Assembly: GCA_902590895.1 (NCBI GenBank)
Contig: CACIYM010000012.1
Coordinates: forward strand, 1-33,305
Direction: 5' to 3'
DNA length: 33,305 nt
Source of the DNA: an uncultured Alphaproteobacteria bacterium
Lineage (GTDB): Bacteria; Pseudomonadota; Alphaproteobacteria; Methylaequorales; Methylaequoraceae
Shown: positions 111 to 29,056 of the stretch, in pieces
Numbering within the stretch: the first letter of the stretch is position 1
How the letters are laid out: every line of letters begins with the position of its first letter
Notes under the pieces: model-generated
Told to the model about the DNA's origin: nothing
The model's database searches: none
What the model saw: the letters and a program-made list of their open reading frames with translations, nothing else
Program-made: the position numbers and the translations under genes

Positions 111-1478
111 ATAATCGCATGGTTATTTGGATGCTTTATTGAGGGTGCTTCAGGTTTTGGGACCCCGGCAGCTGTAGCCGCACCTTTAATGGTAGCAGTT
201 GGGTTTCCACCCTTATCTGCTGTTGTTTTTGGCATGATGATACAATCGACACCAGTATCTTTCGGTGCTGTTGGAACGCCAATGCTTGTGGGTGTGCAGG
301 GTGGTTTAAATAAAGAATTAATAACAAATCAATTAAATAAAATTGATTTAGAATGGGAATATTTTTTTAGAGTCATTGTTTCTGATGTTGCTGTAATTCA
401 TGCTATATGCGGAACATTTATGCCTGTATTATTGATTATGATTATGATCCATTTTTTTGGGGCCAAAAAAAATTGGATAAACGATATTGTTACGATTTTT
501 CCATTTGCAATTTTCTCAGCCTTATGTTTTACGGTTCCTTATTTAATTACAGCTATTTTTCTAGGACCTGAATTTCCATCAATTTTTGGGGGATTGTTTG
601 GTATGGCTACCGTGACATTAGCGGTAAAATATAATTTTTTAGTGCCTAAGGACATTTGGGAATTTGAGGAGAGTTCAAAGTGGCCTAAGCATTGGCTTGG
701 AAATGTAAATATGGAGTTAAAAAATAACAACAAAAAAAAGATTGGTAGCTTTGTTTCTTGGTTTCCATACATTCTTTTGGCTTTTTTTTTAATACTGTCT
801 AGGACTAACGATAATTTAAACAAGTTTTTAAAATCAGTGAATATTAACTTTTTAAACATTCTAGAAGAAGAAAAAATAAATGCAGTTTTTCATTTTTTGT
901 ATTCCCCTGGTTCTGTTTTACTTTTTGTAAGTTCAATTACATTTTTTATTCACAAAATGAATTTTCGTCAAATTAATCTTGCATTTCGTGACTCTACAAA
1001 AATAATTTTTGGAGCTGGCTTTGTTCTTTTATTTACTGTGCCGTTGGTCAGAATTATGATTAACTCTGGTATAAATTATAATGACTTTGTAAGTATGCCT
1101 GTTGCAATGGCAAAAGGTGTCTCTAATACAATGGGTAACGTTTATCCGTTTTTTGCTCCGACAATTGGAGCAATTGGAGCATTTTTAGCGGGTTCTAATA
1201 CAGTTAGTAATTTAATGTTAAGTCAATTTCAATTTGAAACAGCAATTATTTTAGAATTATCAGGAGCTTTAATGGTTGCAGCCCAAAGCGTTGGTGCGGC
1301 TGCAGGGAATATGATCGCAATTCATAATGTTGTTGCCGCATCAGCTACTGTTGGATTGCTTGGAAGAGAAGGTATGACTTTAAGAATAACTATATTACCA
1401 ACAATTTATTACCTGTTGTTTTCTGGTTTAATAGTTTTATGCTTAATATATATTTTTGGCTTCAAAGGCCCTCTTTAG
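111..1478 (+). pseudogene. lldP: L-lactate permease (LctP/LldP family), 5'-truncated or degraded
   Basis: Family motif [27 protein letters not shown] is encoded in frame from ~120, upstream of the first ATG (189). An in-frame TAG lies at 108-110 and the N-terminal ~100+ residues typical of the family are absent. The C-terminal part ([23 protein letters not shown]) is intact. Confidence 0.75.
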
Positions 1479-1489
1479 TAATTATTACC

Positions 1490-2029
1490 TTAGTTTTTTA
1501 CCAAGATAGCATTTCTTAGACGAAAAAACATATTATAATCATCATCTTTTGGTACAAGTTCCAATCTACCTCTTATATTAACAGCATCATATGAAAAAAT
1601 TATTGGATCTTTTGAGTGAACTTCGATAAGCAAATTAGAGGATGTATGTGGGTGGTATGGACAACTTAGAGGAAAAGGACCCAATAAAAATAAACTTTGT
1701 TTTTCATCTTGTTCAAGCGGAAACATATATCCTTGTACTAATATTTCTTTATTATTTAATTTTTTTATTGCCTCGGTAAATTTGGGTCTAACTCCAATCC
1801 ATTCATAGCCATCTTTATCAGTAATAGGGTATTCATCCATACCAGTCTCACCAAAAATTTGCCAAGGTGTACCCCCTGGAGGAAGATCAATAAAATCATC
1901 GACAAAAGATACTAAGTCGTCTTGCTCGAAAGAGGGATCATCGATATAAATTTCACTATCTTGACTATAAAGGTTATAGCCGAAAAAAATATAAAATATT
2001 ATGAGTGCAGTTGATATAAATCTTAAAAT
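1490..2029 (-). CDS. DUF3299-like exported protein; reading frame extends upstream of the annotated ATG (1840)
   Basis: ORF 1490-1840 (VQGYMFPLEQDEKQSLFLLGPFPLSCPYHPH) continues in frame to 2038 with a signal-peptide-like N-terminus (KILRFISTALIIFYIFFGYNLYSQ). There is no ATG/GTG/TTG in the extension; the likely start is ATT at 2029 behind AGGAAAG. Confidence 0.6.
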   Translation of the reverse strand: MLRFISTALIIFYIFFGYNLYSQDSEIYIDDPSFEQDDLVSFVDDFIDLPPGGTPWQIFGETGMDEYPITDKDGYEWIGVRPKFTEAIKKLNNKEILVQGYMFPLEQDEKQSLFLLGPFPLSCPYHPHTSSNLLIEVHSKDPIIFSYDAVNIRGRLELVPKDDDYNMFFRLRNAILVKN

Positions 2030-2057
2030 TTTTCTTTCCTATTTTATTACTGTAAAT

Positions 2058-3467
2058 TTATATATTTTGTGAGAGTTGATTTGCAACACTTATTTTTGAG
2101 CCGTTGTAAGCTGGAATAAGGGATGCAATGAAACCAGAAAATAAAACAACAGTTATAATGAAATAAAAGTCAAAATTTAATACAAATTTTGCTTTACTCA
2201 CGTTCAAAGGTGTAATGAGGTTACTAAAAATTTCAAAAGCAAAGAAACTCATTATAACCCCCAAAAGTATTCCAAAAGATATTATCAAGGTACCTTCGAG
2301 AACAATAATTTTAAATATTCTTTTTTTTGTGTAACCTATTGCTCTTAGTATTGCTAAATCACCCATACGGTTTTCAAGATTACCGGCAAGACCAGAAAAA
2401 ATACTTAAAATAGCTATCGATATCAGTAAAGTAGACAAAAGACTAAAGGTTTTGGATCCAAAACCTAACATTGATGTTAGACGAGTAATTTCTAATGCAG
2501 GATTAGCAGCTTGCATATTAGTCTCGCGATTTATCGAACGAGGAAGATTTACGTTAGCAATAGGTGAGTTTGTTTTAATTAATAAAGCTGTAATTTCTGG
2601 CTCGTTTAGATAGGTTTCAGATGATTTAAAGTTTTTTTGATTAGAATTGACATTTTTAAATTTTTTATTGACGTCATGTTCATTTTGATTTGAATGATTA
2701 TGATCATCATGGTCTTGGTGATGATCATCAACATGCTCTTCATGATGATCTTTTATTTTTTCCTTGTGATTATGTTTTTTATCTTTGTAAGACTCGTGAT
2801 GTTCGTCATTATTTTTATCACTTTTATGATTATGATTATGTTCTGCGTCGTGATGAATATCTTCTAACCCATGAATTTCTAATACTGAATTTACGGATGT
2901 TAACAATAACCTATCTACAACCGAACCAGAGGGTTTTAAAGAACCAACAATTTTGTAAGAATGTTCATCATGAACTCCACCTCCATCTATTAGACCATGA
3001 GCTCCACTTATTTTTTGATTAATTTTTACATCAATATCCGCACCGGCAATCATTTCAAAATCGTCATTCCACAATCTACCCTGATCAATCTTGACGTCAA
3101 AATGTTTTAAGTAATCATATGAAGTTCCAACAATTCTGTATCCTTTCCAATTGTCACCCAAAGCAAGGGGAATTGCTTTTTCTATCAATGGATTTTTGGA
3201 TATTTCAAGAGCAGATTTGTAGGGAATATTTCCGTTTGGAATATCTATATGATAAATAGACGATAAAACGAGTTGCAGGGGACTTCCTTTTGCTCCCACA
3301 ACAATATCAATTCCTTTACCGTCTGAATCAAGACGATTTTTGATATGATTACTGAACTGACTGATTAATAATGCTATTACAATACCAAAAGATGTTAATA
3401 AAACAGATAAAGAACTGTTTAAGCTTCTAGACTTAATTGAGTAAAAAATATAAGCGAGATCATTCAT
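2058..3467 (-). CDS. ABC transporter permease, FtsX/MacB type, with long His-rich extracytoplasmic loop
   Basis: N-terminal TM plus C-terminal TM cluster typical of FtsX permeases (GDLAILRAIGYTKKRIFKIIVLEGTLIISFGILLG). The loop has 18 His in 60 residues. Confidence 0.85.
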   Translation of the reverse strand: MNDLAYIFYSIKSRSLNSSLSVLLTSFGIVIALLISQFSNHIKNRLDSDGKGIDIVVGAKGSPLQLVLSSIYHIDIPNGNIPYKSALEISKNPLIEKAIPLALGDNWKGYRIVGTSYDYLKHFDVKIDQGRLWNDDFEMIAGADIDVKINQKISGAHGLIDGGGVHDEHSYKIVGSLKPSGSVVDRLLLTSVNSVLEIHGLEDIHHDAEHNHNHKSDKNNDEHHESYKDKKHNHKEKIKDHHEEHVDDHHQDHDDHNHSNQNEHDVNKKFKNVNSNQKNFKSSETYLNEPEITALLIKTNSPIANVNLPRSINRETNMQAANPALEITRLTSMLGFGSKTFSLLSTLLISIAILSIFSGLAGNLENRMGDLAILRAIGYTKKRIFKIIVLEGTLIISFGILLGVIMSFFAFEIFSNLITPLNVSKAKFVLNFDFYFIITVVLFSGFIASLIPAYNGSKISVANQLSQNI

Positions 3468-4087
3468 AATTTAATTTCTGATATATTTTTAAAAAATTTT
3501 TTAACTCTTTCATCATGTGATGAAATTACAATTGAGGATTTATTTTTTTTTGCTTGTGTAGATATAAGTTCTAAAACCTTTTTAGTATTTGTATCGTCTA
3601 ATGATGATGTTGGTTCATCTGCAAAAATAACTTTTGGGTTATTTATAACACCTCTAGCAATTGCTACACGTTGTGATTCACCAAAGCTTAAATTTTTTGC
3701 TAATTGTTTTCTTTTAGAAGTTAATCCAATGTCTTCAATTAATTCTATGATATTAGGTGATTTAAGTTTATTAAAACCAAGTAAAATATTTTGCTCAACA
3801 GTAAGATGCTTTACAAGATGAAGCCTTTGAAAGATCAAGCCAAAATTTTTGCTCCTAATCTCGTCAATATCTTTTTCCGTTAACTTTGAATAATCTTTAC
3901 CCTCAAAACTAATATAGCCTGATGTAGGCCTTAATAAACCAGACATCAAATTAATTAAAGTGGACTTTCCAGAGCCTGATGGACCTGAAACAATTAAATG
4001 CGAACCATTATCAATAGAAAAGTTGAGCTTACTCAAAATAATGTTATTTGCTATTAAATAATCTAAATTTTTAACTAAAAAGAACAT
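3464..4087 (-). CDS. ABC transporter ATP-binding protein (LolD/MacB-like)
   Basis: Walker A GPSGSGKSTL, signature LSFGESQRVAIARG, Walker B KVIFADEPTSSLD. Overlaps the permease by 4 nt. Confidence 0.92.
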   Translation of the reverse strand: MFFLVKNLDYLIANNIILSKLNFSIDNGSHLIVSGPSGSGKSTLINLMSGLLRPTSGYISFEGKDYSKLTEKDIDEIRSKNFGLIFQRLHLVKHLTVEQNILLGFNKLKSPNIIELIEDIGLTSKRKQLAKNLSFGESQRVAIARGVINNPKVIFADEPTSSLDDTNTKKVLELISTQAKKNKSSIVISSHDERVKKFFKNISEIKL

Positions 4088-4125
4088 TAAACTAAACTTA
4101 TTGATAGATAAAACTTTTTTTCGTC

Positions 4126-4491
4126 TTAAAGCCTCTCTAGCGTAAACACAGATAAATTAACGAGATAAAGAGATAAAGATAAATAAATATTTATTCTTAT
4201 TTTCCTCTGCTTTACATCACATTTCTTGTCTTCACACTCGTCTTTATTAGTACAAGAAATTCTTTTACCATGCATTTCTGTTAAAATTAATAGCAACAAA
4301 ATGATTGTTGAAAATATTATCAGGATTGGTTCAATTTTTTCTATTGTGGAACCTGATAGTAGTAAAAAAGGGAGTCCAATATTGGTTGACAAAGATAGTA
4401 TACTTAAAGTGAAGGGTACACCACAACATAAAAAGTGGCAAAAACAGCTTAAGAGCAAAAAGTATGAAGAAATAAACCTTGTAAGAGACAT
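4126..4491 (-). CDS. Small Cys-rich membrane protein
   Basis: 121-aa ORF upstream of the ABC genes on the same strand. Hydrophobic, with CFCHFLCCGVP and CTNKDECEDKKC motifs. Confidence 0.6.
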   Translation of the reverse strand: MSLTRFISSYFLLLSCFCHFLCCGVPFTLSILSLSTNIGLPFLLLSGSTIEKIEPILIIFSTIILLLLILTEMHGKRISCTNKDECEDKKCDVKQRKIRINIYLSLSLYLVNLSVFTLERL

Positions 4492-4512
4492 TTAAAAAAT
4501 AAAAAAATTGTT

Positions 4513-4525
4513 GTTAAATTATAAC
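4513..4525. promoter_or_regulatory. Weak candidate Zur box (GTTAAATTATAAC) between divergent genes 4491(-) and 4586(+)
   Basis: 11/13 match to GTTATAATATAAC, which is found upstream of the DUF1826 and COG0523 genes in this window. Confidence 0.35.
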
Positions 4526-4585
4526 ATATACAACAAAAATGCAATCACAACTTTAATCGTGTTAGTCAATACATTATAATTTTAT

Positions 4586-5188
4586 ATGAAATTTGTAAAT
4601 TCTTTCAAAAAAGCAGTTTTTTTGGTTGCGGTCTTAAATTTAATTTTTTTTTTTATTGAATTTACCGTAGCGTTAAACATTAGATCTGTCTCTTTATTAG
4701 CTGATTCAATTGATTTTATTGAGGATACATCAATTAATTTTTTAATTTTTTTTGCAGTTTCTCTTTCATTAGTAAAAAGAGCAAAGATAAGTGTTTTTTT
4801 ATCAATAATAATGATGTTACCAGGTCTTATTGCCATATGGGCTGTTTGGAAACAAATTATTTATCAGCAGCCGCCAGAACCAATTGAATTATCAATTGTT
4901 GGGTTTGGTGCTCTCGTTGTGAATTGTTTATGTACTTATATACTAATGAAATTTAGAAACTACAGTGGTAGTCTAACCAAAGCAGCATTTCTTTCAGCTA
5001 GAAATGATGCTGTTGCAAATTTTACTATCATTTTTGCCGGAATAATTACTATATTTTACCCATCGATTTGGCCCGATATCTTAGTTGGATTATTTATTGC
5101 TTACATAAGAACTGAGTCAGCATTAGAAATTTATAAAAAAGCACGCAGTGAATTAAAAAATATTCAAGAGCCCTCTAAAAAAATTTAA
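4586..5188 (+). CDS. Cation diffusion facilitator-like transporter
   Basis: Multi-TM protein with CDF-like motifs SLLADSIDFIEDTSINFLIFF and LSARNDAVANFTII. Confidence 0.7.
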   Translation: MKFVNSFKKAVFLVAVLNLIFFFIEFTVALNIRSVSLLADSIDFIEDTSINFLIFFAVSLSLVKRAKISVFLSIIMMLPGLIAIWAVWKQIIYQQPPEPIELSIVGFGALVVNCLCTYILMKFRNYSGSLTKAAFLSARNDAVANFTIIFAGIITIFYPSIWPDILVGLFIAYIRTESALEIYKKARSELKNIQEPSKKI

Positions 5189-5235
5189 ATTTTTTTTGAT
5201 ATTTCTAATCTAATATACTATTTATATTAATAAAT

Positions 5236-5598
5236 ATGAAACACTTGCTCATTCTGCTTTTTGGATTTATGCTTATTTTTAACACGAGCACCTCTTTGGC
5301 TTTAAAGCATGGTTTTAATCATAAAGAAAGCTTTTCATTATCAGAGCAGCATAATCATCGTAAAGATTCAAACAACTATGATTGTCATAGTTCAAAAAAT
5401 GATAAAAAATCATCAAATCAAACACATTGTGAAGGCGTCTGTTTATGTTCACATTTTTCCAATAAGTTAAACTTTATTTCGGATTCGAGTAACTGCAAAA
5501 CAAATGACTTCATCATAACCGATCGTTCAATTTTGCACACAAAGTTTTTTATATCGTCTTTTATAAAAAGCCCACCAAAAAGACCTCCAAAAATATAG
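5236..5598 (+). CDS. Small exported Cys/His-rich protein (putative metal binder)
   Basis: Signal-peptide-like N-terminus followed by HNHRKDSNNYDCHSS...THCEGVCLCSHFS. Confidence 0.55.
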   Translation: MKHLLILLFGFMLIFNTSTSLALKHGFNHKESFSLSEQHNHRKDSNNYDCHSSKNDKKSSNQTHCEGVCLCSHFSNKLNFISDSSNCKTNDFIITDRSILHTKFFISSFIKSPPKRPPKI

Positions 5599-5664
5599 TC
5601 TAAATTTCTTTTAAAAGCTTTACTACATAAGATCTAACAAAAATTAAATTTCTTAGGAGGATTT

Positions 5665-6306
5665 ATGAAGATCACAATATTTACGATATTGTTTACATTT
5701 GCTTGCTTTAATATCACAAAAGCTAGACCTGTTTCTTATCCTGGAGGATTAACACTAATGCTGATGAATAGTGCTATGAAAAATAGTTTGCATACTCACT
5801 ATTCTCCAACAGCAAAAACATCTTTGGGTTACAAAATAGAATATTGGCGAGGTGATGAATTTACATTAAACATGATTCAGATGAATAATCTCATCAAACG
5901 TTGGAATAAGCCTGAATCACAAGCTAATTTTTATTTAAAGTCAGCAATCGGTGCTGCTTTAAGTGATAAAGCTGACTTTGAAAGTAAAAAAAATTTTGCT
6001 GGTTTTATTGGAATATCAACAGATTGGGAAAATCAAAGGTATTTTATACAATATGCAAATCGTTACACTAAAGCTTTTGAAATAAAAGATTTCTATACAC
6101 AATTCATTCACCTTGGAATAGCTCCATACATTGGAGAGTATGGAGATATTCATACTTGGTTTATGATAAAAATTGACCACACCCCTGAGTTTGATAGAAA
6201 ACTTGTTTTCACACCTCATCTACGTTTTTTTAAAAATGTTCACTTAGTGGAAGTTGGTGCAGATACCAAGGGGAAAATCATGTTTAACTATGTTTTTAGA
6301 TACTAA
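5665..6306 (+). CDS. Exported protein, probable outer-membrane beta-barrel
   Basis: Signal peptide MKITIFTILFTFACFNITKARP, alternating beta-strand-like pattern, terminal aromatic (NYVFRY), SD AGGAGG upstream. Confidence 0.55.
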   Translation: MKITIFTILFTFACFNITKARPVSYPGGLTLMLMNSAMKNSLHTHYSPTAKTSLGYKIEYWRGDEFTLNMIQMNNLIKRWNKPESQANFYLKSAIGAALSDKADFESKKNFAGFIGISTDWENQRYFIQYANRYTKAFEIKDFYTQFIHLGIAPYIGEYGDIHTWFMIKIDHTPEFDRKLVFTPHLRFFKNVHLVEVGADTKGKIMFNYVFRY

Positions 6307-6319
6307 GAAAGGAATATTT

Positions 6320-6619
6320 ATGAAAAAATTAATTTTTTTTGTTGTAATTTTTTGTGCACTGTACAGAAGCTCATCGGCAGAGGATAAAAGTTTAACAGTA
6401 TATGCATACGTTAACGGTTTAGTTTGTGATTTTTGCGCACGTGCCTTAGAGATGACTATTGGAAAACAAAATGCCGTAAAAGCTATTAACGTTAATTTAA
6501 AGGATAAGGTTATAACAATAAACTTCAATGATAATCAAAGATTGGAGGATAGTGTTATTTCGCAATTAATTAATGATGCAGGGTATACTGTTAGAGAAAT
6601 AACTAATGAAAAAAAATGA
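6320..6619 (+). CDS. Exported heavy-metal-associated (MerP-like) domain protein
   Basis: Starting at ATG 6320: signal peptide plus HMA-like fold with CxxC (LVCDFCARALE). The ORF-track start at 6254 overlaps the preceding gene. Confidence 0.7.
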   Translation: MKKLIFFVVIFCALYRSSSAEDKSLTVYAYVNGLVCDFCARALEMTIGKQNAVKAINVNLKDKVITINFNDNQRLEDSVISQLINDAGYTVREITNEKK

Positions 6620-7001
6620 TACAACATTCTGGATTCAGACCATAATTCCATCATTAAGTTTGTTTACATCTTTGGGAACATTGCTATGTTGTGCGTTACC
6701 GGCTTTAATGGTAACGCTTGGTATGGGGGCAACTTTGGCTGGTTTAATTGGTGTTTTTCCATATATTACCTCTATTTCTGATTATAAGGAATATACCTTT
6801 ATAATCTCGGGTATATTGATTTTTTTTGGTTTTTTTAGTCAGTGGAGTACAAAAAACGTTTCATGTCCAAGTGATCCAGTTAAAGCAAAATTATGCAATA
6901 AATTAAGAAATTTTAGTTGGATAATATTGTATATTTCATTAACATTATATTTAATAGGATTCTTTTTTGCTTTCATTGCAATTCATATATTTTTTGAATA
7001 A
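6606..7001 (+). CDS. MerT-like small membrane transport protein
   Basis: Multi-TM protein with vicinal Cys in TM1 (LGTLLCCALPALMVTLGMGATLAGL). Overlaps the MerP-like gene by 14 nt. Confidence 0.65.
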   Translation: MKKNDTTFWIQTIIPSLSLFTSLGTLLCCALPALMVTLGMGATLAGLIGVFPYITSISDYKEYTFIISGILIFFGFFSQWSTKNVSCPSDPVKAKLCNKLRNFSWIILYISLTLYLIGFFFAFIAIHIFFE

Positions 7002-9024: not shown

Positions 9025-9067
9025 GGGTTTAAAACTAGACAACGGCAAGATTAATTAATTATTATAA
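9025..9067 (+). repeat. Dispersed left-end/leader repeat (copy G) containing TAGACA-18-TATTAT
   Basis: GGGTTTAAAACTAGACAACGGCAAGATTAATTAATTATTATAAA resembles 20193-20233 and 26149-26189. The tRNA-derived core is not visible here. Confidence 0.6.
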
Positions 9068-9072
9068 AAAAA

Positions 9073-9393
9073 ATGATAATTAACTTTAAGATAAAATTAA
9101 CAACTCTATTTATCTGCTTTTTTGTATCAAATGAAGTAAAATCCAATCAAGAAACTCAAAACGAAGAAGAAAATAAACGATTTGCCTGTATTGAAAAATA
9201 TTTGAATAAAGATTTAAAAAAAGGAGAAAAGCAAATAATTTATCGTGCTTGTGAGAGACTCATAAGTAAAAATGAGAAAAAGCAAAAAATAGCTAAATGT
9301 ACTTTAAAGGAGATTGGCAAACATCCTTTAACAGTTTTGATTGTAAAGCAAAATAATTGTTTTCATCATTTTATGTACCACAAATATGAGTAA
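9073..9393 (+). CDS. Small exported protein, four Cys, unknown
   Basis: Signal-peptide-like N-terminus. The start codon lies ~8 nt downstream of the -10-like TATTAT of repeat copy G. Confidence 0.5.
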   Translation: MIINFKIKLTTLFICFFVSNEVKSNQETQNEEENKRFACIEKYLNKDLKKGEKQIIYRACERLISKNEKKQKIAKCTLKEIGKHPLTVLIVKQNNCFHHFMYHKYE

Positions 9394-19485: not shown

Positions 19486-20166
19486 ATGCACATGACTATT
19501 TTGGTTATATTTTTGTTGATAAGTTTTATTCCTGTTTTATGGGTTAACTACGTATTTAAGAAAAATGATACAATTTTACCAAATATGCCCTTTGATGCAT
19601 ATGAATTTGGTGAAGACATTCTTGAAGAATTGAAATTAAAAAACGTTAGTATAGAAAAAACTTTAATTGGTGATCACTACGATTTACTTGAAAAAAAAGT
19701 TAAGGTGCATGAAGATCGGCTTAAAAGAAAAAGCTTAACTTCAATTAGTATTATGTGTCACGAGATAGGTCATGCAATTCAACATGCTCAAAATTATTCG
19801 CCTTTAATCACGAGAACTAAACTTGTGAAAAACACTCAATGGATAAACAAAATAAGTTTGGCAATAATTTACATTGGATTTCCTTTAATTTTTGCTACTG
19901 GATCTTTATCGCTTATTAAATTCTGTGCTTCGATAATACTGCTAAGTACATTTATTGGAGTAATTATTCACCTGATTACACTTGAAGTAGAATTAGATGC
20001 TAGTTTTAATAGAGCCTTCCCAATAATTAAAAAGAAAATACCTGAAGTATATCACAATTCCTGTCGTTCTGTTCTCAGAGCAGCAGCTTTTACTTATGTT
20101 GTAGGTGTATTTAAAAATTTGATATCTTTACGTATGATATGGACAATTTTATCTAAACTAAGATAG
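19486..20166 (+). CDS. Zinc metallopeptidase, YugP-like membrane protein
   Basis: HEIGHAIQHAQ (HExxH) plus hydrophobic segments and LITLEVELDASFNRAFPII. Confidence 0.85.
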   Translation: MHMTILVIFLLISFIPVLWVNYVFKKNDTILPNMPFDAYEFGEDILEELKLKNVSIEKTLIGDHYDLLEKKVKVHEDRLKRKSLTSISIMCHEIGHAIQHAQNYSPLITRTKLVKNTQWINKISLAIIYIGFPLIFATGSLSLIKFCASIILLSTFIGVIIHLITLEVELDASFNRAFPIIKKKIPEVYHNSCRSVLRAAAFTYVVGVFKNLISLRMIWTILSKLR

Positions 20167-20240
20167 TGGCAGAGAGACAGGTGAAAACCCAGGGTTTTAA
20201 CTAGACAACCCCTAGGTTAATTATTTATTATGAATAAATA
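20167..20240 (+). repeat. tRNA-Ser 3'-end-derived repeat, copy F, with leader/promoter
   Basis: TGGCAGAGAGACAGGTGAAAACCCAGGGTTTTAACTAGACAACCCCTAGGTTAATTATTTATTATG. Similar to copy B (26124 on) across the whole length. Confidence 0.8.
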
Positions 20241-20271
20241 ATAATTGATAGGGTTAAAGAGGTTTACTGAA

Positions 20272-20664
20272 ATGCTAATTTTTTTACTCATAACGTTGAT
20301 AATATTTGGAAATTTGATTTATGCTTATCAATGTATTTTCCAAACACGCAAGTACATTGAGAAATATGGCTTTGGTGAAGGCAGCGCAATTATGACAAGA
20401 CTTGTTGGGACTTTTGCTGGCGGCTTTGCAGCCACCCTAGCTATTGCTTTAATCACTTCTATCGAAGGTGCTTGGTTACTGTTTGTCTATGGTTTTGTGC
20501 AAGCATGTATCGGGGCAATCGTTTGCTTTCAAACTATCCACAGTTATTGGGGTTCTGTTGACGGTGTAAAAACATCTGCTGAAGGATACATCGCTCCCGC
20601 CATAATAGCATTTTTAAACTTAATGGTGCTTATTATTGGTTGGGATTTACTGTTTAAAATATAA
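20272..20664 (+). CDS. Small multi-TM membrane protein, unknown
   Basis: Hydrophobic ORF. ATG 20272 with AGAGG upstream is an alternative to the track's TTG at 20245. Confidence 0.65.
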   Translation: MLIFLLITLIIFGNLIYAYQCIFQTRKYIEKYGFGEGSAIMTRLVGTFAGGFAATLAIALITSIEGAWLLFVYGFVQACIGAIVCFQTIHSYWGSVDGVKTSAEGYIAPAIIAFLNLMVLIIGWDLLFKI

Positions 20665-20710
20665 ATATTGAATTTCTGACTACAGGGGAACTCTTTTGCA
20701 GTCAAGGAGG

Positions 20711-20727
20711 TGGCGGAGAGTCAGGAA
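20711..20727 (+). repeat. tRNA-Ser 3'-end-derived repeat, copy E (core only)
   Basis: TGGCGGAGAGTCAGGAA matches the tRNA 3'-end core TGGCGGAGAGACAGGGA at 15/17. Confidence 0.65.
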
Positions 20728-20896
20728 ATACAGAAAAAAGTTTAAAATAACTTAAATCTAGAAATTTCAATTTTAATTGAAATAACAAGATATTTTCATA
20801 TATTATAATCAATATTTTTATAATTGATAATGAATCTAAATTTATTTCTTATTCACGTATTAAATCACTTAACTATATGAGAATGTTTTTTTATAA

Positions 20897-22222
20897 ATGG
20901 AAAAAATAGATATAGTCATCATTGGTGCTGGAATTGCTGGAATTGCATCCGCTTACTATCTGCAAAGAAACTTTCCAAATATTAAATTTAAAATATTAGA
21001 GTCAAGAAGTAGTGTAGGTGGAACTTGGGATCAAATGAGATTTCCTGGTGTTCGTGCAGATAACGACATGTATACCTATGGATTCAGCTATTACCCATGG
21101 AAAGGATCTATAATAGGGAACGGGGAGGAAATTAGAAATTATTTAAATGAGGTAACTGATAAATTTAATATCAAAAAAAACGTTTTATTTAATACCGAAG
21201 TCAAATCATTAATTTGGAAGGATAATAAATGGATCATTAAAACTGATCACAGTAAATTTACTAGTCAATACGTTGTTTGTTGCACGGGTTCAAGAGATCG
21301 TAAGAACCCACATCTTCCAAAGTTTAAAAATGAAAAAATATATAAAGGAAAAATTGTACACACTCAAGCTTGGGGAAACATAGAATTTAAAAACAAAAAT
21401 ATAACCATTGTTGGCAGTGGATGTACTGCTATAACAATGGCACCCTCGATTATCAAAGAAGCAAAAAAAGTAACGTTAATTCAGCGAAGTCCTGCATGGA
21501 TAATAAATATTGATAGTAAAGAAAAATCAACACGACTTTATAAAACATTTCAGGTTTTATGGAATTACTTTTCAAGTAGGATTTTTAAAAATTTTAAAAG
21601 AAAAAAAATGATATCCGGTAACGCCTATTACAACGAGACTACTACACCTTCATATGATTATTGGGATCAGCGTCCCGCAAGTAGCTTGGATAACGATTAT
21701 TTTTCAGCTGTAAAGTCAGAAAAAGTAACTGTAGTTCGACAAGGAATTAGTAATTGGGAGAGAACTGGTGTAAGGTTAAAAAACGGAAGAGTTATCAAAA
21801 GTGATATAACAATTATGGCCACTGGTGGTAATTCTCAATTATTAGGGGGCATTGATATCTTCGTTGAAAATAAACGAATTAACATTAACGATACAAGTTG
21901 GTATAGAGGAATGATGTTTAGTGGAATACCAAATCTCTTTGCACATGCTGGATATATTAATTTTAGTTGGACAGCAAGGTGCGAAATAGTAAGCCAACGT
22001 ATTTGTAAAACTATAAAATATATAAAAAAAAATAAATTACTAAGTTGTACTCCAAAATATATTGGAGAAAAAACAGAGCCATCAATTCAAGCAAATTATA
22101 TTTTGCGAGCAATGGACCAATTTCCTAACAGAACCTACAAGTTTTATCAAAATTACATTATAGAATATTTAAGTTTTAAATTTACCAAAATAAACGATGG
22201 AGCATTAGACTTTTCAAAATGA
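20897..22222 (+). CDS. Flavin-dependent monooxygenase (BVMO-like)
   Basis: GAGIAGIASAYYL, GGTWDQMRFPGVRADNDMYTYGFSY, BVMO-like fingerprint YKGKIVHTQAWG, second dinucleotide motif GSGCTAITM. Confidence 0.88.
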   Translation: MEKIDIVIIGAGIAGIASAYYLQRNFPNIKFKILESRSSVGGTWDQMRFPGVRADNDMYTYGFSYYPWKGSIIGNGEEIRNYLNEVTDKFNIKKNVLFNTEVKSLIWKDNKWIIKTDHSKFTSQYVVCCTGSRDRKNPHLPKFKNEKIYKGKIVHTQAWGNIEFKNKNITIVGSGCTAITMAPSIIKEAKKVTLIQRSPAWIINIDSKEKSTRLYKTFQVLWNYFSSRIFKNFKRKKMISGNAYYNETTTPSYDYWDQRPASSLDNDYFSAVKSEKVTVVRQGISNWERTGVRLKNGRVIKSDITIMATGGNSQLLGGIDIFVENKRININDTSWYRGMMFSGIPNLFAHAGYINFSWTARCEIVSQRICKTIKYIKKNKLLSCTPKYIGEKTEPSIQANYILRAMDQFPNRTYKFYQNYIIEYLSFKFTKINDGALDFSK

Positions 22223-22238
22223 TTAGAGGATTATTAAA

Positions 22239-23519
22239 ATGAAACTAGAATCTATTGCACTCCATCATGGTTATGAATCAGAAAAAAATGACCAAAAGTC
22301 AGCAACAACTCCCATTTATCAAACCTCGGGATTTACCATTGATAATACACAGCATGGAGCAGATTTATTTGACCTCAAAGTTGAGGGAAATATTTATTCA
22401 AGAATAGGCAACCCAACCAATGCAGTTCTTGAAAAAAGAATTGCGGAAATGGAAGGTGGAATTGCAGCTTTATCTTTGGCTTCTGGAATGGCCGCAATCG
22501 CATATGCCATTCAAACCATTACAAGAGCAGGGGATAATATTATAAGTACAAATCAATTATACGGAGGAACTTATAACTGTTTCACTCACAGTTTACCAAA
22601 GCAAGGTGTTAAAGTTAAAATGTTTGACGGAGACGATTATAAAGGAATTGATGAGGCAATAGATGAAAAAACTAAAGCTTTATATTGCGAATCAATAGGT
22701 AATCCTTATGGTAACATTATTGATATTAAAAAATTTGCAAATATTGCTCACAAACATGGGATACCATTAATTGTAGATAATACAGTAGCAACGCCATACT
22801 TATGTAGACCTATTGATTTTGGAGCAGATATTGTCATTCACTCTTTAACAAAATATATTGATGGTCATGGTGCTACTATTGGAGGAATCATAGTTGATTC
22901 AGGAAAATTTGATTGGGCCAAGGAACCAAAAAAATTTCCCATGCTTAATGAGCCGGATCCATCTTATCATGGAATTAGATATACTGAAAAGTTTGGACCA
23001 GCTGCTTTTATTGGTTGTTGTAGAGTTGTTCCATTACGCGAAACAGGAGCTTGTCTATCCCCAAACAATGCATACATAATAATGCTTGGACTTGAATCGT
23101 TGGGTGTGAGAATGGAAAGACATTGCAAAAATGCTCTTGCACTTGCGAGATATCTAGACGGTCACGAAAGTGTGAAATGGGTTAATTATGCAGCTCTACC
23201 TAACGACAAATATCATGATGTTTGTAAAAAAATTACCAATGGTCAAGCATCTGGTATTATCAGTTTTGGTATTAAAGGTGGAAAAGATTCAGGTGCGAAG
23301 TTTATTGATGCACTTCAAATGATTTTAAGGGTATTAAGTATGGGTGATGCTAAATCTCTTGCATGTCATCCTGCATCAACATTACACAGACAATTAACTC
23401 CAGAGCAAAAGGCTTCAGCAGGAGTTAGCGAAGACTTGATTAGAATCTCTGTTGGTATAGAGCATATTGATGATATTATTAATGATGTTGAACAAGCAAT
23501 TCAGGCATCAAAAAAATAA
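22239..23519 (+). CDS. metY: O-acetylhomoserine aminocarboxypropyltransferase (sulfhydrylase)
   Basis: PLP Cys/Met metabolism enzyme motifs ATTPIYQTSGFTIDNTQHGADLF, YSRIGNPTNAVLEKRIAEMEGG, HSLTKYIDGHGATIGG, HPASTLHRQLTPEQ. Confidence 0.93.
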   Translation: MKLESIALHHGYESEKNDQKSATTPIYQTSGFTIDNTQHGADLFDLKVEGNIYSRIGNPTNAVLEKRIAEMEGGIAALSLASGMAAIAYAIQTITRAGDNIISTNQLYGGTYNCFTHSLPKQGVKVKMFDGDDYKGIDEAIDEKTKALYCESIGNPYGNIIDIKKFANIAHKHGIPLIVDNTVATPYLCRPIDFGADIVIHSLTKYIDGHGATIGGIIVDSGKFDWAKEPKKFPMLNEPDPSYHGIRYTEKFGPAAFIGCCRVVPLRETGACLSPNNAYIIMLGLESLGVRMERHCKNALALARYLDGHESVKWVNYAALPNDKYHDVCKKITNGQASGIISFGIKGGKDSGAKFIDALQMILRVLSMGDAKSLACHPASTLHRQLTPEQKASAGVSEDLIRISVGIEHIDDIINDVEQAIQASKK

Positions 23520-23593
23520 TTAATTCTCTTAAACTATTTGCAGCTATGTTGAAACGCAACCTCAAGACTTCAAGAATCACCAATCAATTTATT

Positions 23594-23684
23594 TTAGATA
23601 TATAGTTTAGGTATAAAAAGCTGACTTGCAGCTTGTAGGAGCTCAGAAATCATAGGGTAAGTGTTAGTAGCGGAGAGAGTGAAA
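23594..23684 (+). repeat. Cassette-boundary repeat, copy D: 74-nt right end plus degenerate tRNA-Ser core
   Basis: 23594-23667 aligns ungapped with 28893-28966 (58/74 identical by hand count). Core TAGCGGAGAGAGTGAAA. Confidence 0.8.
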
Positions 23685-23712
23685 AAGCCAGGTTTTAATT
23701 ATGTTGCCGATA

Positions 23713-24528
23713 TTAAAAAGATAGTTTTAAAGAACCAGAAATTGAAAAATTATGTTGACCATCAATATTATCATTAGCTGACCCCAAGGTTGAAGCACTA
23801 ATGGTGTTGATTGAGGTTTCGTCAGATTCTAAGCCACCTTTATATCTGTATCCTAAATCAATACCTAAAGATAACTGGTTATTTTCGGAGACGTTTGTTA
23901 AATATTCAACACCAGTTTTAAGATCTGTTGCGAATACGGTCGAATCTTTTGAATAAGCTATTGCTGATGTTGATAAGCCTGCTGCGGTCAAAGTAAGATC
24001 AAGTCCGTCAATGGTGGCAAATCCAAATCCAGCGCTTAAATACGGACGAAAACCATTAGATAAATCAAATGATTTACCAGCACCAAAAATAAAACTTGTC
24101 TCACTGTAATCAGAAAACTTACCTCTTACAGTAGTAGTATTTTGACCTCCAAAGGTAAAGTTTGCTGCAGCTGTGATAGCATCAAAATCTTGAGCATCTG
24201 CAGAGTTATGCATAATTCTTAAAAAACCAAAATAATCGTTAGAAAAGTTATAACCAATTTCACCTCCAAACGATGTCATGGTATCAAAAGCATCATCATA
24301 ATCTATTTCTTGTGAAGTTATGGTAACGGCAGCGTTAGCAATTGCTCTACCACCTTGCGTAATATTTCCTCCTACAGCTAATGTTGCCTGTTGAGAAATA
24401 CTTCCACCTGTGTTAAATTCAGTACCTCCTAAAGGTTTAACATAAAAGTTATCAATTATTAGTGAGTGATCCTCCGAATATAATGCGATTGGTGACAAAA
24501 ATATTAAAGTAGAAAGAAACTTTTTCAT
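23713..24528 (-). CDS. Outer-membrane beta-barrel protein
   Basis: Signal peptide MKKFLSTLIFLSPIALYS, glycine/aromatic barrel pattern, terminal SISGSLKLSF. Confidence 0.8.
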   Translation of the reverse strand: MKKFLSTLIFLSPIALYSEDHSLIIDNFYVKPLGGTEFNTGGSISQQATLAVGGNITQGGRAIANAAVTITSQEIDYDDAFDTMTSFGGEIGYNFSNDYFGFLRIMHNSADAQDFDAITAAANFTFGGQNTTTVRGKFSDYSETSFIFGAGKSFDLSNGFRPYLSAGFGFATIDGLDLTLTAAGLSTSAIAYSKDSTVFATDLKTGVEYLTNVSENNQLSLGIDLGYRYKGGLESDETSINTISASTLGSANDNIDGQHNFSISGSLKLSF

Positions 24529-24634
24529 TATAATTCACCCCTACCTTATTTACATCATAATGTCAAGCTTATAAAAATATAAGTTGTTGCACTAAAAAAA
24601 ACCGTGGTTTATTTCCTCCCCGGGTCAATATTTT

Positions 24635-24739
24635 TTAGGGGTAAAAGTTAGGGGTAAAATTTCAGAATTAAGGCTCTAAGAATTAGGGAATCCGGGGCTT
24701 TCAGATAGTGGCGGAGAGACAGGGAAAAGGCCAGGGTTT
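24635..24739 (+). repeat. Cassette-boundary repeat, copy C: 74-nt right end, tRNA-Ser core (24709-24725), left end
   Basis: TTAGGGGTAAAAGTTAGGGGTAAAAT...CAGATAG|TGGCGGAGAGACAGGGA|AAAGGCCAGGGTTT. The 74-nt part is 59/74 identical to 26050-26123. Confidence 0.9.
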
Positions 24740-24748
24740 TATGCTAAT

Positions 24749-25963
24749 TTAAGCTACTTTCTGAAACCATACGGGGAAGGGATCAAGGGCTTTATGATAT
24801 GAATTGGGATCTTCAAGATAGTTCTTTATCAAACAAGCATCCAGTCTCTCACGAATATTCTTTTCATCCATCTCAGATTTTAAACCTATAAAAACAATTT
24901 CTTGTCGACGGTCACCAAAATCTTTATTCCAATATTTATCCATTAACGCATCAAAATCAGGTCCCTCTGGCCAACGATCTTTAGGTACAGTCGTCCACCA
25001 CCTACCAATTCCCTGATGACGAACAAATGCACCTGCCTGAGAAACTTCACCAATAAATTCAGGTCGACTTGAAATCCAAAAAAAACCTTTAGATCTAATC
25101 ACACCTGGCCATTCTTGATTAAAAAAATTATGGATTTTTGATGGATCAAATGGTTCACGGGCTAAATATACAAAACTTGTAATCCCATACTCTTCTGTTT
25201 CTGGAACATGATCTTTAAAGTTATAGAGTTCTTTTGCCCACAAAGGATGTGTATGAGCTTGTTTAAGATCAAACAAACCGGTACCAATAACTTCTTTTAG
25301 ATTGACAGTGGAGTGTGAGCATTCAAAGACTTTTGCCTCAGTATTAAGCCCACTTATAATTGCTTTAACAGTTTTTAATTCCTCAGAGGATATTAAGTCA
25401 ATCTTATTCAATAGAATTACATTAGCAAACTCAATTTGTTCGACAAGAAGATCAACAAGTGTTCGTTCATCATCTTCTAAACTTTCTCCTTTATCTTTTA
25501 AAAAATCAGTGGAGCTATAATTTTTGATAAGATTTGCAGCATCTACAACAGTTACCATTGTGTCAAGTTTTGCTACATCGGATAAACTTACTCCATCCTC
25601 ATCACGAAAGTCAAAGGTAGTTGCCACTGGTAAAGGTTCGGAGATACCAGTACTTTCTATAAGTAGGTAATCAAATTTACCTTCAGTTGCTAATTCTCTA
25701 ACTTGTACCAAAAGATCTTCACGTAAAGTACAACAAATACATCCATTACTCATTTCTACAAGTTTCTCTTCAGTTTGAGATAAGTTACCACCTCCACGTT
25801 CTACTAGATTAGCATCAATATTTACTTCACTCATATCGTTTACGATAACTGCAACCTTGAGACCTTGTCGATTATTAAGGATGTGATTTAAAAGAGTTGT
25901 TTTACCTGCACCAAGGAAACCCGACAATACTGTGACTGGAAGTTTTTTATCTAAAACTTTCAT
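24749..25963 (-). CDS. COG0523 (G3E family, CobW-like) GTPase, putative zinc metallochaperone
   Basis: [27 protein letters not shown] (CxCC), [18 protein letters not shown]. The likely start ([15 protein letters not shown]) is 25963 rather than 26008. Confidence 0.93.
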
Positions 25964-26017
25964 AATAAATTCTCCACAAAATTTAATTAAGTTAAAATCA
26001 AAAGACACATATTAAGT

Positions 26018-26030
26018 GTTATAATATAAC
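26018..26030. promoter_or_regulatory. Candidate Zur box GTTATAATATAAC
   Basis: Perfect inverted repeat 55 nt upstream of the COG0523 start. Extended match to 7927-7939. Confidence 0.75.
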
Positions 26031-26049
26031 ATTTCAACAATAAATTTCT

Positions 26050-26192
26050 TTGGGGGTAATCTTGGGGGGTAAAATTATAAAATCAAGGCTTTAAAGAGTA
26101 GGGAATCAGGGGCTTTCAGATAGTGGCGGAGAGACAGGGAAAAGGCCAGGATTTATATAGACAATCCCTAGATTAATTAAGTATTATGAATA
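26050..26192 (+). repeat. Cassette-boundary repeat, copy B: 74-nt right end, tRNA-Ser core (26124-26140), left end with promoter
   Basis: TGGCGGAGAGACAGGGA identical to the tRNA-Ser 3' end, followed by AAAGGCCAGGATTTATATAGACAATCCCTAGATTAATTAAGTATTATGAATAG. Confidence 0.9.
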
Positions 26193-26193
26193 G

Positions 26194-28230
26194 ATGTCAA
26201 TATTTTTTCAAGTAACGTTTTTTATCTTACTTACTTTTAATGTAAATCACAGCTATGCTTTGCCTAATTGTAAAGGAGATTATTGGAATAATTGTTTGGG
26301 AACTCATACAAATGCTAGGGGAGATAAATGGATAGGTGAATGGAAAGATAATAAGATGCATGGACAAGGAACTTACACAAATACTAAGGGCGATAAATAT
26401 GTAGGTGAATTTAAAGACAACAAATTCAATGGACAAGGAACTATGATATCTGGTAACGGCGATAAATATATAGGTGAACATAGATATGGCAAGCCTCATG
26501 GGCATGGAGTTTTTACATCTGCTGAAGGCGATAAATATATAGGTGGATGGAAAGACGGTAAAAAGCATGGACAAGGAACTTTTACATCTGCTGATGGCGA
26601 TGAATACATAGGTCAATTTAAAGACGACGATATTAATGGACAAGGAACTTTTACATCAACTCTTGGCCATAAATACACAGGTGAATTTAAAGATACTAAT
26701 TTTCACGGACAAGGAATTTTTGAATATGTTAATGGGAAAAAAGATGAAGGAATATGGGAAAATGGTACCTTTGTAAAACAAATAAAATTAGATCAACAAC
26801 AAAGCAAGAGACACAGTAAGCATGTGACAAATTTGCCTTCTTGTAAAGGAGCTAATCGTGATAATTGTTTTGGAACTATAAAATATACCAATGGAGATAA
26901 ATATGAAGGTGAATTTAAAGATGGTAAAAAGCATGGAAAAGGGACTTATATAACTAATCAAGGACATAAATACGTAGGCGAATATAAAGATGGTAAGAGT
27001 CATGGAAGAGGAACTGCTATATGGTCAAATGGAGATAAATATGAAGGTGAATTTAAAGATGGTAAAAGGCATGGAAAAGGGACTAATTCATTTGTCAATG
27101 GATTGAAATACACAGGTGAATTTAAAGATGATAATTATCATGGTCAAGGGACTTATATATCTCCTAAAGGAGGAAAATACGTGGGTAAATTTAAGGATGG
27201 TAAGAAGCATGGAAAAGGCACTTATATATCTCCTAAAGGAGATAAATACGTAGGCGAATTTAAAGATGGTAAGAGACATGGAAGAGGAACTGCTATATGG
27301 TCAAATGGAGATAAATATGAAGGTGAATTTAAAGATGGTAATTATCATGGTCAAGGGACTTACACATATGCTAATGGAACAAAAGATGAAGGAATATGGG
27401 AGTATAATAATTTTGTAAAATCAATAAAATTAGATCAACAACAAAAGCAAGCTGAAGGGAAAAAAAGAAAAGAGGAAGAAAGAAAAAAACAACAGGCAAT
27501 TATAGACCTTGAATCTAAAAGAATCACATTAGGAATGGGATCAGGTTTTTGGTTTGACAAACAAGGTTATTTCGCAACGAATCATCATGTAATTGAAGGC
27601 TGCAATACAACACAAATCAAATTAAATAATGAACTATTAGAATCAAAAATTATTTCATTTGATAAAACTAATGATATAGCAATAGGAAAAGTAGAAAAAG
27701 AAATTGCTTCTTTTTTTAAGCTTAGTAACAAACCGGAACTTGGCGAAGATGTATTGGTGGGAGGATTTCCTCTTAGTGGAGTTTTACAAAATGATAGTAT
27801 TAAAATTACAAGAGGAATAGTGAGCTCACTCTCAGGAATTAATAACAATTACTCAATGTTACAAATTGACGCACCGATTCAAAAAGGAAATAGTGGAGGT
27901 CCAATTATTAATACAAAGGGTGAAGTAATTGGAATAGCTACTGGAGCTTTAGAATCAACTAAAGAATATAAAACTCAAAATGTTAACTTTGGAGTTAAAG
28001 TAAATCTCCTTAGAAATATGTCTGAATCATTAGGAATAAATGTTAAAAATAGAGGGAGACTGAAAACTAGAAGCTCTAAAGAACTAGCCAAGGCCTTAGA
28101 AAAAAATACCATACATATTCACTGTACGAATACTTTTAAAAAATGGATGGAATATCAAAATAATGAAAAATCAAACACATATATGTCTGAACATGTTAAA
28201 ATTAATCTAAAGGAATATAAGAGTAAGTAA
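26194..28230 (+). CDS. Exported MORN-repeat protein with C-terminal trypsin-like (S1C-type) serine protease domain
   Basis: Signal peptide; two blocks of ~23-aa MORN repeats (GDKYEGEFKDGKKHGKGTY...); protease motifs ATNHHVIEG (His), NDIAIGKVE (Asp), QKGNSGGPIIN (Ser). Confidence 0.9.
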   Translation: MSIFFQVTFFILLTFNVNHSYALPNCKGDYWNNCLGTHTNARGDKWIGEWKDNKMHGQGTYTNTKGDKYVGEFKDNKFNGQGTMISGNGDKYIGEHRYGKPHGHGVFTSAEGDKYIGGWKDGKKHGQGTFTSADGDEYIGQFKDDDINGQGTFTSTLGHKYTGEFKDTNFHGQGIFEYVNGKKDEGIWENGTFVKQIKLDQQQSKRHSKHVTNLPSCKGANRDNCFGTIKYTNGDKYEGEFKDGKKHGKGTYITNQGHKYVGEYKDGKSHGRGTAIWSNGDKYEGEFKDGKRHGKGTNSFVNGLKYTGEFKDDNYHGQGTYISPKGGKYVGKFKDGKKHGKGTYISPKGDKYVGEFKDGKRHGRGTAIWSNGDKYEGEFKDGNYHGQGTYTYANGTKDEGIWEYNNFVKSIKLDQQQKQAEGKKRKEEERKKQQAIIDLESKRITLGMGSGFWFDKQGYFATNHHVIEGCNTTQIKLNNELLESKIISFDKTNDIAIGKVEKEIASFFKLSNKPELGEDVLVGGFPLSGVLQNDSIKITRGIVSSLSGINNNYSMLQIDAPIQKGNSGGPIINTKGEVIGIATGALESTKEYKTQNVNFGVKVNLLRNMSESLGINVKNRGRLKTRSSKELAKALEKNTIHIHCTNTFKKWMEYQNNEKSNTYMSEHVKINLKEYKSK

Positions 28231-28324
28231 ATTATATATTATTAAATTTACCTAATTGTAAGAAATATTCATTGTCAATTCACATTGATTGTATAATTTT
28301 AACATTCCAATTAAATTTTGGGGT

Positions 28325-28372
28325 ATAGTAACGACCTACCGTTCTGGAATAGTAACGACCTAATCGTTCTGT
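28325..28372. repeat. Two tandem direct repeats ATAGTAACGACCTA(C/AT)CGTTCTG upstream of the micro-ORFs
   Basis: 28325-28348 and 28349-28372 read ATAGTAACGACCTACCGTTCTGGA and ATAGTAACGACCTAATCGTTCTGT. The second contains AACGA-cctaa-TCGTT. Confidence 0.7.
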
Positions 28373-28441
28373 CTCAAACAGTAAAAGTTTCCGTACATTC
28401 AAATTTTCTTGGTTAATAACAATTAACAAAGGAGAACCGTA

Positions 28442-28558
28442 ATGGGCAAAATTATATACAACGTTTTAGTCAGAAAATCCTCACAAGATATCAAAATGAT
28501 ACCTACAGGACACACAATTATATTTGGTAGAAATTTAATTAAGAAAGGGGATAAGTAA
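28442..28558 (+). CDS. Micro-ORF 1 (38 aa): MGKIIYNVLVRKSSQDIKMIPTGHTIIFGRNLIKKGDK
   Basis: Good SD (AAAGGAGAACCGTAATG). Stop overlaps the next ATG (TAATG). Shares GRNLIKKGxK with micro-ORF 2. Confidence 0.55.
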   Translation: MGKIIYNVLVRKSSQDIKMIPTGHTIIFGRNLIKKGDK

Positions 28559-28674
28559 TGGTGAAAATAACAAAAAAGACTATTTACTACGAAGGGATGC
28601 CTCTGAGACCACTTAAGATGGGAAAAATTTCCATAGTACTTGGAAGAAATTTAATTAAGAAAGGAGGTAAATGA
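28558..28674 (+). CDS. Micro-ORF 2 (38 aa): MVKITKKTIYYEGMPLRPLKMGKISIVLGRNLIKKGGK
   Basis: Same length as micro-ORF 1, identical C-terminal motif, SD AAGGGG upstream, stop/start overlap with the next ORF (ATGATG). Confidence 0.55.
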   Translation: MVKITKKTIYYEGMPLRPLKMGKISIVLGRNLIKKGGK

Positions 28675-28832
28675 TGGCAAAGGTAATTTATAAAGGCTAT
28701 GCAAAAAAAGATGATCCAATTTACACTGATAGATTTGTAATTTCTAACCCTAAAGTAATCCTTCCTAAAAAAGGCAAAGATTTATACTTTCTTTATGGAA
28801 AAAGTGGAGAGTATTACTTCCCACTTTTTTAA
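28674..28832 (+). CDS. Micro-ORF 3 (52 aa): MAKVIYKGYAKKDDPIYTDRFVISNPKVILPKKGKDLYFLYGKSGEYYFPLF
   Basis: SD AAGGAGG. N-terminus (M-A-K-V-I-Y) resembles micro-ORF 1. Confidence 0.5.
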   Translation: MAKVIYKGYAKKDDPIYTDRFVISNPKVILPKKGKDLYFLYGKSGEYYFPLF

Positions 28833-28892
28833 TCTAATTAGCAGGAGCATTTCCTCCCCCGGGTCAATATATTCTTGGGGGGGGTATCTATT

Positions 28893-28966
28893 TTAGGTAT
28901 AAAGCTTAGGTATAAAAAACCAATTTAAAGCCCGTAGGAGTACAGAAATCTTAGGGTTAGGGTTAG
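28893..28966 (+). repeat. 74-nt cassette right end (copy A) abutting the tRNA-Ser 3' end
   Basis: TTAGGTATAAAGCTTAGGTATAAAAA...TTAGGGTTAGGGTTAG aligns ungapped with 23594-23667. A further upstream segment (TTTCCTCCCCCGGGTCAATAT) also matches the upstream of copy C. Confidence 0.85.
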
Positions 28967-29056
28967 TGGCGGAGAGACAGGGATTCGAACCCTGGAAGGA
29001 CTTGCATCCTTGCCGGTTTTCAAGACCGGTGCATTCGACCACTCTGCCATCTCTCC
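28967..29056 (-). tRNA. tRNA-Ser(UGA), CCA encoded
   Basis: Reverse complement GGAGAGATGGCAGAGTGGTCGAATGCACCGGTCTTGAAAACCGGCAAGGATGCAAGTCCTTCCAGGGTTCGAATCCCTGTCTCTCCGCCA. Class II variable arm, TGA anticodon. Confidence 0.97.

Follow-up and report, generated by a model that had tools for sequence, protein, structure and literature searches.

A cassette array at a tRNA-Ser(UGA) gene in an uncultured alphaproteobacterium, with a probable portable promoter at one type of cassette left end

The 33,305-nt stretch of DNA analysed here (the window) contains an array of cassettes at a tRNA-Ser(UGA) gene, and we consider it likely that the site at 26194 is the left end of a mobile cassette carrying a portable sigma-70-type promoter that would produce a leaderless mRNA. 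The repeats in the window are copies of the 3' end of tRNA-Ser(UGA) (AGTGGCGGAGAGACAGG) with common flanks, every cassette junction carries the final ~17 nt of this tRNA, and in the same genome the att repeats are confined to this array. Judged by their sequence, the repeats are attachment sites for the cassettes arrayed at this tRNA gene. The array comprises cassettes for a 139-aa membrane protein (20166-20710), an FAD enzyme and a PLP enzyme (20710-23667), a possible outer-membrane protein on the minus strand (23667-24708; a Pfam search of the product of 23713..24528 gave no match), a CobW/ZigA GTPase on the minus strand (24708-26123) and a MORN-trypsin protein on the plus strand (26123-28966). 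Downstream of its main gene, the MORN cassette holds three tandem short reading frames at 28405-28832 with a spacing of 116 nt and Shine-Dalgarno-like AAGAAAGGAGG sequences. Coordinates are given in Table 1; the array, its cores, the fixed tandem repeats, the common left-end block and the identity between genera are read from the sequence.

Table 1. Features of the window that bear on the cassette array and its promoter copies.
Feature	Position	Strand	Basis
Promoter copy without att core	9036..9065	+	pattern search
Small exported protein gene, 106 aa; related copy in G002	9073..9393	+	alignment
att core, one mismatch; distal end of recognisable array	20165..20181	+	core match
Promoter copy TAGACA-18-TATTAT, left end of 139-aa cassette	20202..20231	+	pattern search
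139-aa-type membrane protein gene, probable start ATG 20272, AGAGG-containing leader	20272..20664	+	orthologue comparison
Degenerate att core ahead of FAD/PLP cassette	20709..20725	+	core match
Two-gene content: FAD monooxygenase-like and Cys/Met PLP enzyme	20897..23519	+	Pfam
Degenerate att core, copy D, without promoter block	23666..23681	+	core match
Cassette gene, function not assigned; beta-barrel-like outer-membrane protein by inspection only	23713..24528	-	ORF
Right-end tandem repeats TAGGGGTAA-AAGT-TAGGGGTAA; motif as at relatives' integrase genes	24636..24657	+
att core, copy C, no promoter block behind	24707..24723	+	core match
CobW/ZigA-type metallochaperone GTPase	24749..26008	-	Pfam, NCBIfam
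Right-end tandem repeats GGGGGTAATCTTGGGGGGTAAA, CobW cassette, 51 nt before core	26052..26073	+
att core AGTGGCGGAGAGACAGG, between CobW and MORN cassettes	26122..26138	+	tRNA-Ser 3'-end copy
MORN cassette left-end block: GAAAAGGCCAGG, promoter, start codon, first codons	26139..26203	+	alignments
-35-like hexamer TAGACA	26158..26163	+	pattern search
-10-like hexamer TATTAT	26182..26187	+	pattern search; predicted transcription start 26194
Exported MORN-repeat and trypsin-like (HtrA-type) protease, 678 aa	26194..28230	+	Pfam MORN 243 bits, Trypsin_2 82 bits; NCBIfam
MORN cassette right end: tandem repeats TTAGGTATAAAG-C-TTAGGTATAAA, 51 nt ahead of core, putative arm-type sites for an integrase	28893..28916	+
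tRNA-Ser(UGA), integration target; last ~17 nt = recombination core	28967..29056	-	ARAGORN; Rfam tRNA 61.5 bits

The first-pass annotation had placed TAGACA and TATTAT hexamers 18 nt apart at three sites, and this was borne out by exact matches on the plus strand of the window at 9036-9065, 20202-20231 and 26158-26187. Its distances from the -10 hexamer to the start codon were also right (26187 to ATG 26194, 9065 to ATG 9073 and 20231 to TTG 20245), as was the statement that the hexamers are missing from left ends C (24708) and D (23667), each of which precedes a minus-strand gene. The pattern TAGACA-N16-19-TATTAT has 3 matches in the window against 0.04 expected, a number reached in 0 of 100 shuffles; the genome-wide search that had been proposed, run with TAGACA-N17-19-TATTAT over the whole 1.07-Mb assembly, returned the same three copies only, and the reversed control returned none. 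The copies combine conserved -35 and -10 hexamers with a spacing in the 16-18 nt range of a sigma-70 promoter. Because generic 10-of-12 promoter matches are common and unremarkable in DNA this rich in A and T (54 against 42 in shuffles), the promoter case rests on conservation and placement. A family-wide hexamer search gave a number of matches of the same order as its reversed control and is therefore uninformative by itself; the signal lies in placement near tRNA-Ser.

We then compared seven homologous left ends, picked by their att core and not by the hexamers. All share TTTTAA-TAGACAA-N-TATTAT with the promoter 19-21 nt inside the core, and TAGACA is kept in 7/7 and TATTAT in 6/7. Mean column identity was 1.00 for the -35 hexamer, 0.93 for the -10 hexamer, 0.73 for the spacer and 0.64 for the stretch from core to -35, values that overstate selection because some of the homology between copies is common descent. 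A plus-strand gene follows the block in all seven cases, and the block occurs at none of the 14 left ends that precede minus-strand genes (8 distinct cassettes), although most of these ends have normal cores. After orthologous cassettes were collapsed, the block was present in 4 of ~9 forward cassettes versus 0/8 reverse ones (one-sided p ~0.05, hand count), so the end does not require it. The earlier proposal that the promoter doubles as the mobile-element end was not supported: it is the tRNA-Ser core that forms the end, and the majority of ends carry no such promoter. What stands of the proposal is a portable promoter just inside the core of some left ends, pointing into four unrelated plus-strand genes and found at none of the ends ahead of minus-strand genes.

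The four cassette proteins behind the block have no mutual blastp similarity. Comparison of the MORN gene, L041:6212, L041:8384, 9073 and the G002 relative of 9073 showed homology that extends over the first 30 nt of coding sequence (15-27 positions identical) and then falls towards background. For three of the four cassette genes and for 9073, it passes through the ATG into the first ten codons, the start of a signal peptide, and the block therefore behaves like an adaptor that brings a promoter, a start codon and the opening of a signal peptide. The 139-aa gene does not share this N-terminus, and its promoter is present only where the att left end is present; the orthologues in G015, G004, G027, G028, G030, G018 and G007 have other upstream DNA and no promoter.

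Standard sigma-70 geometry, from which the transcription start at 26194 is predicted, would put the start points on the A of that ATG and, for ATG 9073, one base ahead of it at 9072. The genes at 26194 and 9073 are likely to be expressed without a leader, and the same is plausible for L041:6212 and L041:8384. The 139-aa gene behaves differently. An AGAGG leader and ATG 20272 are conserved in nearly all of its orthologues, so the gene most likely starts at this ATG and not, as annotated in the first pass, at TTG 20245. The 20202 copy thus probably gives a transcript with a leader of ~34 nt, and it is the gene rather than the end that decides whether expression is leaderless; the idea that leaderlessness is a property of the end itself is not upheld, and leaderless expression remains a plausible reading at the four sites named. 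Among 267 non-redundant genes, from which the block genes were excluded, -10-like hexamers lie 5-8 nt before the ATG 34 times against 16 expected, about a twofold excess, while Shine-Dalgarno-like motifs number only 32, compared with 19 at a control position. A leaderless start is therefore plausible here and, for this lineage, probably nothing unusual.

The copy at 9036 had been counted among the left ends. It is not an attachment site, having neither tRNA core nor GAAAAGGCCAGG; the stretch from promoter to N-terminus is nonetheless homologous to the cassette copies. The identical hexamer pair with 18-nt spacing precedes genes away from any core both here and in L101. A second promoter family of the same form, TAGACATTCATTGTGTTTGTAATTTATTAT, lies 8-9 nt before ATGAAA (L101:7086-7124, L101:9135-9173, L117, L144 and L136), and its genes, several of them in tRNA-Ser(GGA) islands, encode small exported proteins with near-identical signal peptides and different mature parts. 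Near a tRNA-Thr, L105:2714-5264 holds a cluster of short genes without the same promoter, all beginning MKKLLLILICLFVSFEV and with unrelated remainders, which suggests shuffling of signal-peptide starts.

The right ends of the cassettes are ~80 bp long and of related types (GGGGGGTAATCTTGGGGGGTAAA, TAGGGGTAAAAGTTAGGGGTAA and TTAGGTATAAAGTTTAGGTATAAA), each containing a tandem pair of repeats that lies 50-53 nt ahead of the core in 19/19 exact tandem matches preceding a core. These repeats resemble tyrosine-integrase arm-type sites. The arrangement TAGGGGTAA-N4-TAGGGGTAA has 8 occurrences in 32 genomes and none in the reversed control: just upstream of three integrase genes, at tRNA-Ser right ends in G011, G017, G026 and G031, and at 24636 in the window. 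Its presence at both integrase genes and cassette ends links the two by sequence. The candidate is a DUF6538-Phage_integrase protein of 411-417 aa, encoded at tRNA-Ser(UGA) in G011 and at tRNA-Ser(GGA) in G017 and G031, and this tyrosine integrase is the likely helper of the cassettes. It was found in only 3 of the 32 genomes, which are incomplete, and was not found in G000 or in any of the cassette arrays read; the window cassettes encode no tyrosine recombinase, whereas the G011 element does. In G011 and in G018 the element is enclosed by two tRNA copies that are whole or nearly so. At L111:4455-15118 and L053:2606-8872 the elements have a near-complete tRNA-Ser(UGA) gene on either side, and the one from G011 encodes the integrase, a protein of 1,181 aa that is helicase-like by inspection, and one of 824 aa.

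A PF00589 search returned mainly XerC/XerD-sized matches (~2 per genome) and several phage-type integrases at other tRNAs. We rejected a resident integrase other than the DUF6538 type, since only this type lies at tRNA-Ser with matching repeats. The candidate scores 65.6 bits against the NCBIfam XerA/integron model (cut-off 220), and its relatives in phage and plasmid records are distant (<=36% identity among the matches listed). A viral origin was also set aside, as the core pattern, the right-end pattern and the integrase relatives were all without a match in IMG/VR. The right end gave no support for a hairpin or terminator, with z-scores between -1.0 and +2.0 and no terminator-like sites.

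To place the array among its relatives, DNA matches at E<=0.001 were collected from 15 other family genomes and one more distant genome (a short match, probably chance). In the sequence read, eight family genomes have at least one cassette junction (G026, G005, G002, G017, G031, G015, G016 and G007), with weaker cases in G004 and G024, so that arrays occur in about 10 relatives from several genera of the family. In public records the core pattern occurs in single-cell genomes labelled uncultured Alphaproteobacteria or Rickettsiales, and no viral contig in IMG/VR matched it. Cassettes are mostly single-gene, with a median core-to-core interval of 1,415 bp (range 464-6,765, n=27), and G026 has six consecutive cassettes in which every core is perfect. 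The CobW gene, present in 13/32 incomplete genomes, shares 98.7-99.0% DNA identity between the window and the att-site copies in G026, G017, G031, G016, G024 and G002, while chromosomal genes across the tRNA (AcuI-like and IMPase-like) share 65-71% between those genera; away from the attachment site (G027, G028 and G030) its identity is ~90%. This difference between cassette and neighbours implies that the CobW/ZigA cassette moves, and its ~99% identity in distant genera suggests a recent spread of a metal-homeostasis gene. Right ends, too, are nearly identical across genera.

From these features we infer recombinase activity, promoter activity and leaderless translation in the following scheme. 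Cassettes would circularise and insert at the tRNA-Ser 3' end, probably through the DUF6538-Phage_integrase tyrosine integrase in trans, each insertion restoring the tRNA and leaving the ~17-nt core between cassettes. One left-end variant would carry, 19-21 nt inside the core, a sigma-70-type promoter that points into the cassette. For at least three cassette genes the ATG follows the -10 box by 7 nt and the block continues into the signal peptide; a start codon at this distance would place transcription on the A of the ATG and give a leaderless mRNA wherever the cassette lands. A newly captured gene could thus probably be expressed at once from a ready-made promoter and start codon. A bolder form of this scheme, integron-like gene capture on a tRNA gene with the DUF6538 integrase in trans and one end class serving as an expression/secretion adaptor joined to different coding sequences, is put forward only tentatively.

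An unlikely alternative is that this lineage commonly has such a promoter before its exported-protein genes, and that it was carried into cassette ends with one gene and spread by homologous recombination without any special cassette role. Leaderless placement is indeed a general tendency, homology extends into the signal peptide, and a similar TAGACATT-N-TTTATTAT stands 8-9 nt before the ATG of small exported proteins in tRNA-Ser(GGA) islands. However, the block precedes four unrelated cassette genes, including the 139-aa one without the shared N-terminus, and attachment-free orthologues do not have it. The array could also be a decayed, immobile remnant of successive phage or island insertions in which the promoter persists by descent, as the degenerate cores at 20710 and 23667, the lack of an integrase in the array and the empty IMG/VR search might indicate; the ~99% identity of the CobW cassette across genera, the six perfect cores in G026 and the near-identical right ends speak against this, and we regard it as improbable. 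Equally hard to sustain, and if anything slightly more so, is the view that the left-end block is mainly an integrase-binding left arm site whose promoter likeness is incidental. The block does lie 19-21 nt from the core, and the reverse complement of its spacer (CCTAGGGGTTG, copy 20202) resembles the TAGGGGTAA arm motif, but the hexamers are better conserved than the spacer with that resemblance (0.73), all 14 left ends before minus-strand genes lack the block although most of their cores are normal, and the same hexamer pair and 18-nt spacing occur ahead of genes without a nearby core (9036 and L101).

The system belongs with the additive tRNA islands and the tandem ssrA islands. According to excerpts of three papers, marine and freshwater bacteria, some with small streamlined genomes, carry additive flexible genomic islands at tRNA genes: Alteromonas (PMC4119200), Actinomarinales (PMC7771536) and Methylopumilus, with tRNA-Lys repeats (PMC10872708). 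The array resembles the islands so described in its conserved tRNA target, its tandem cassettes separated by direct repeats of the tRNA 3' end, and a content that varies among relatives at the same tRNA site. It differs in being mostly single-gene and in having a defined ~80-bp right end, fixed-distance tandem repeats and some left-end promoter blocks, an end anatomy that does not appear in those excerpts of PMC4119200, PMC7771536 and PMC10872708. The Dehalococcoides ssrA-specific islands are likewise tandem modules, separated by 20-bp repeats that derive from the 3' end of an RNA gene, and many are without an integrase and thought to be mobilised by relatives (PMC3146451), as the integrase is missing from the modules here; they differ in their serine recombinase, tmRNA target and larger multi-gene islands.

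With integrons the array shares mostly one-gene cassettes, growth at one anchor and a recombinase likely acting in trans. In contrast to integrons, there is no IntI-type integrase beside the array, the junctions are tRNA-Ser 3' ends instead of attC, with a double-stranded, tRNA-derived core, and no anchor promoter Pc was found at the array; transcription from within large integron cassette arrays has been studied (PMC2945992). Tycheposons, as summarised in an excerpt of PMC10872708 citing Prochlorococcus work, have a tRNA gene at the end and a tyrosine recombinase and exchange cargo in the sea. The G011 element between two tRNA-Ser copies resembles them, whereas the window cassettes are one-gene in size, end in only ~17 nt of tRNA and not a complete gene, and hold no tyrosine recombinase gene. 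New are an end anatomy that is fixed, cassettes of one-gene size, a candidate integrase as helper and a promoter block resembling an adaptor, none of which was found described in the open-access papers searched. Streamlined ocean bacteria swap genes without obvious phages or plasmids, and one-gene cassettes with recognisable ends, one fixed tRNA target, a candidate integrase and expression signals of their own would give this a concrete, searchable mechanism; the end motif (tandem TAGGGGTAA, GGGGGGTAA or TTAGGTATAAA with a tRNA core ~51 nt later) can serve as a cassette finder for single-cell and metagenome data.

Some loci of the relatives show further variation. In G030, three successive tRNA-Ser copies, complete or partial, lie at L052:10739-11090 (reversed locus), and L042:5663-6127 (reversed locus) is a 464-bp cassette without an ORF of at least 70 aa. 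The tRNA-proximal and presumably newest cassettes at L041:13420-15276 and L042:6165-12776 (reversed locus) carry defence-like genes; such cargo includes a GmrSD-type restriction enzyme (Pfam) and, by inspection, a restriction-modification-like cluster in G005.
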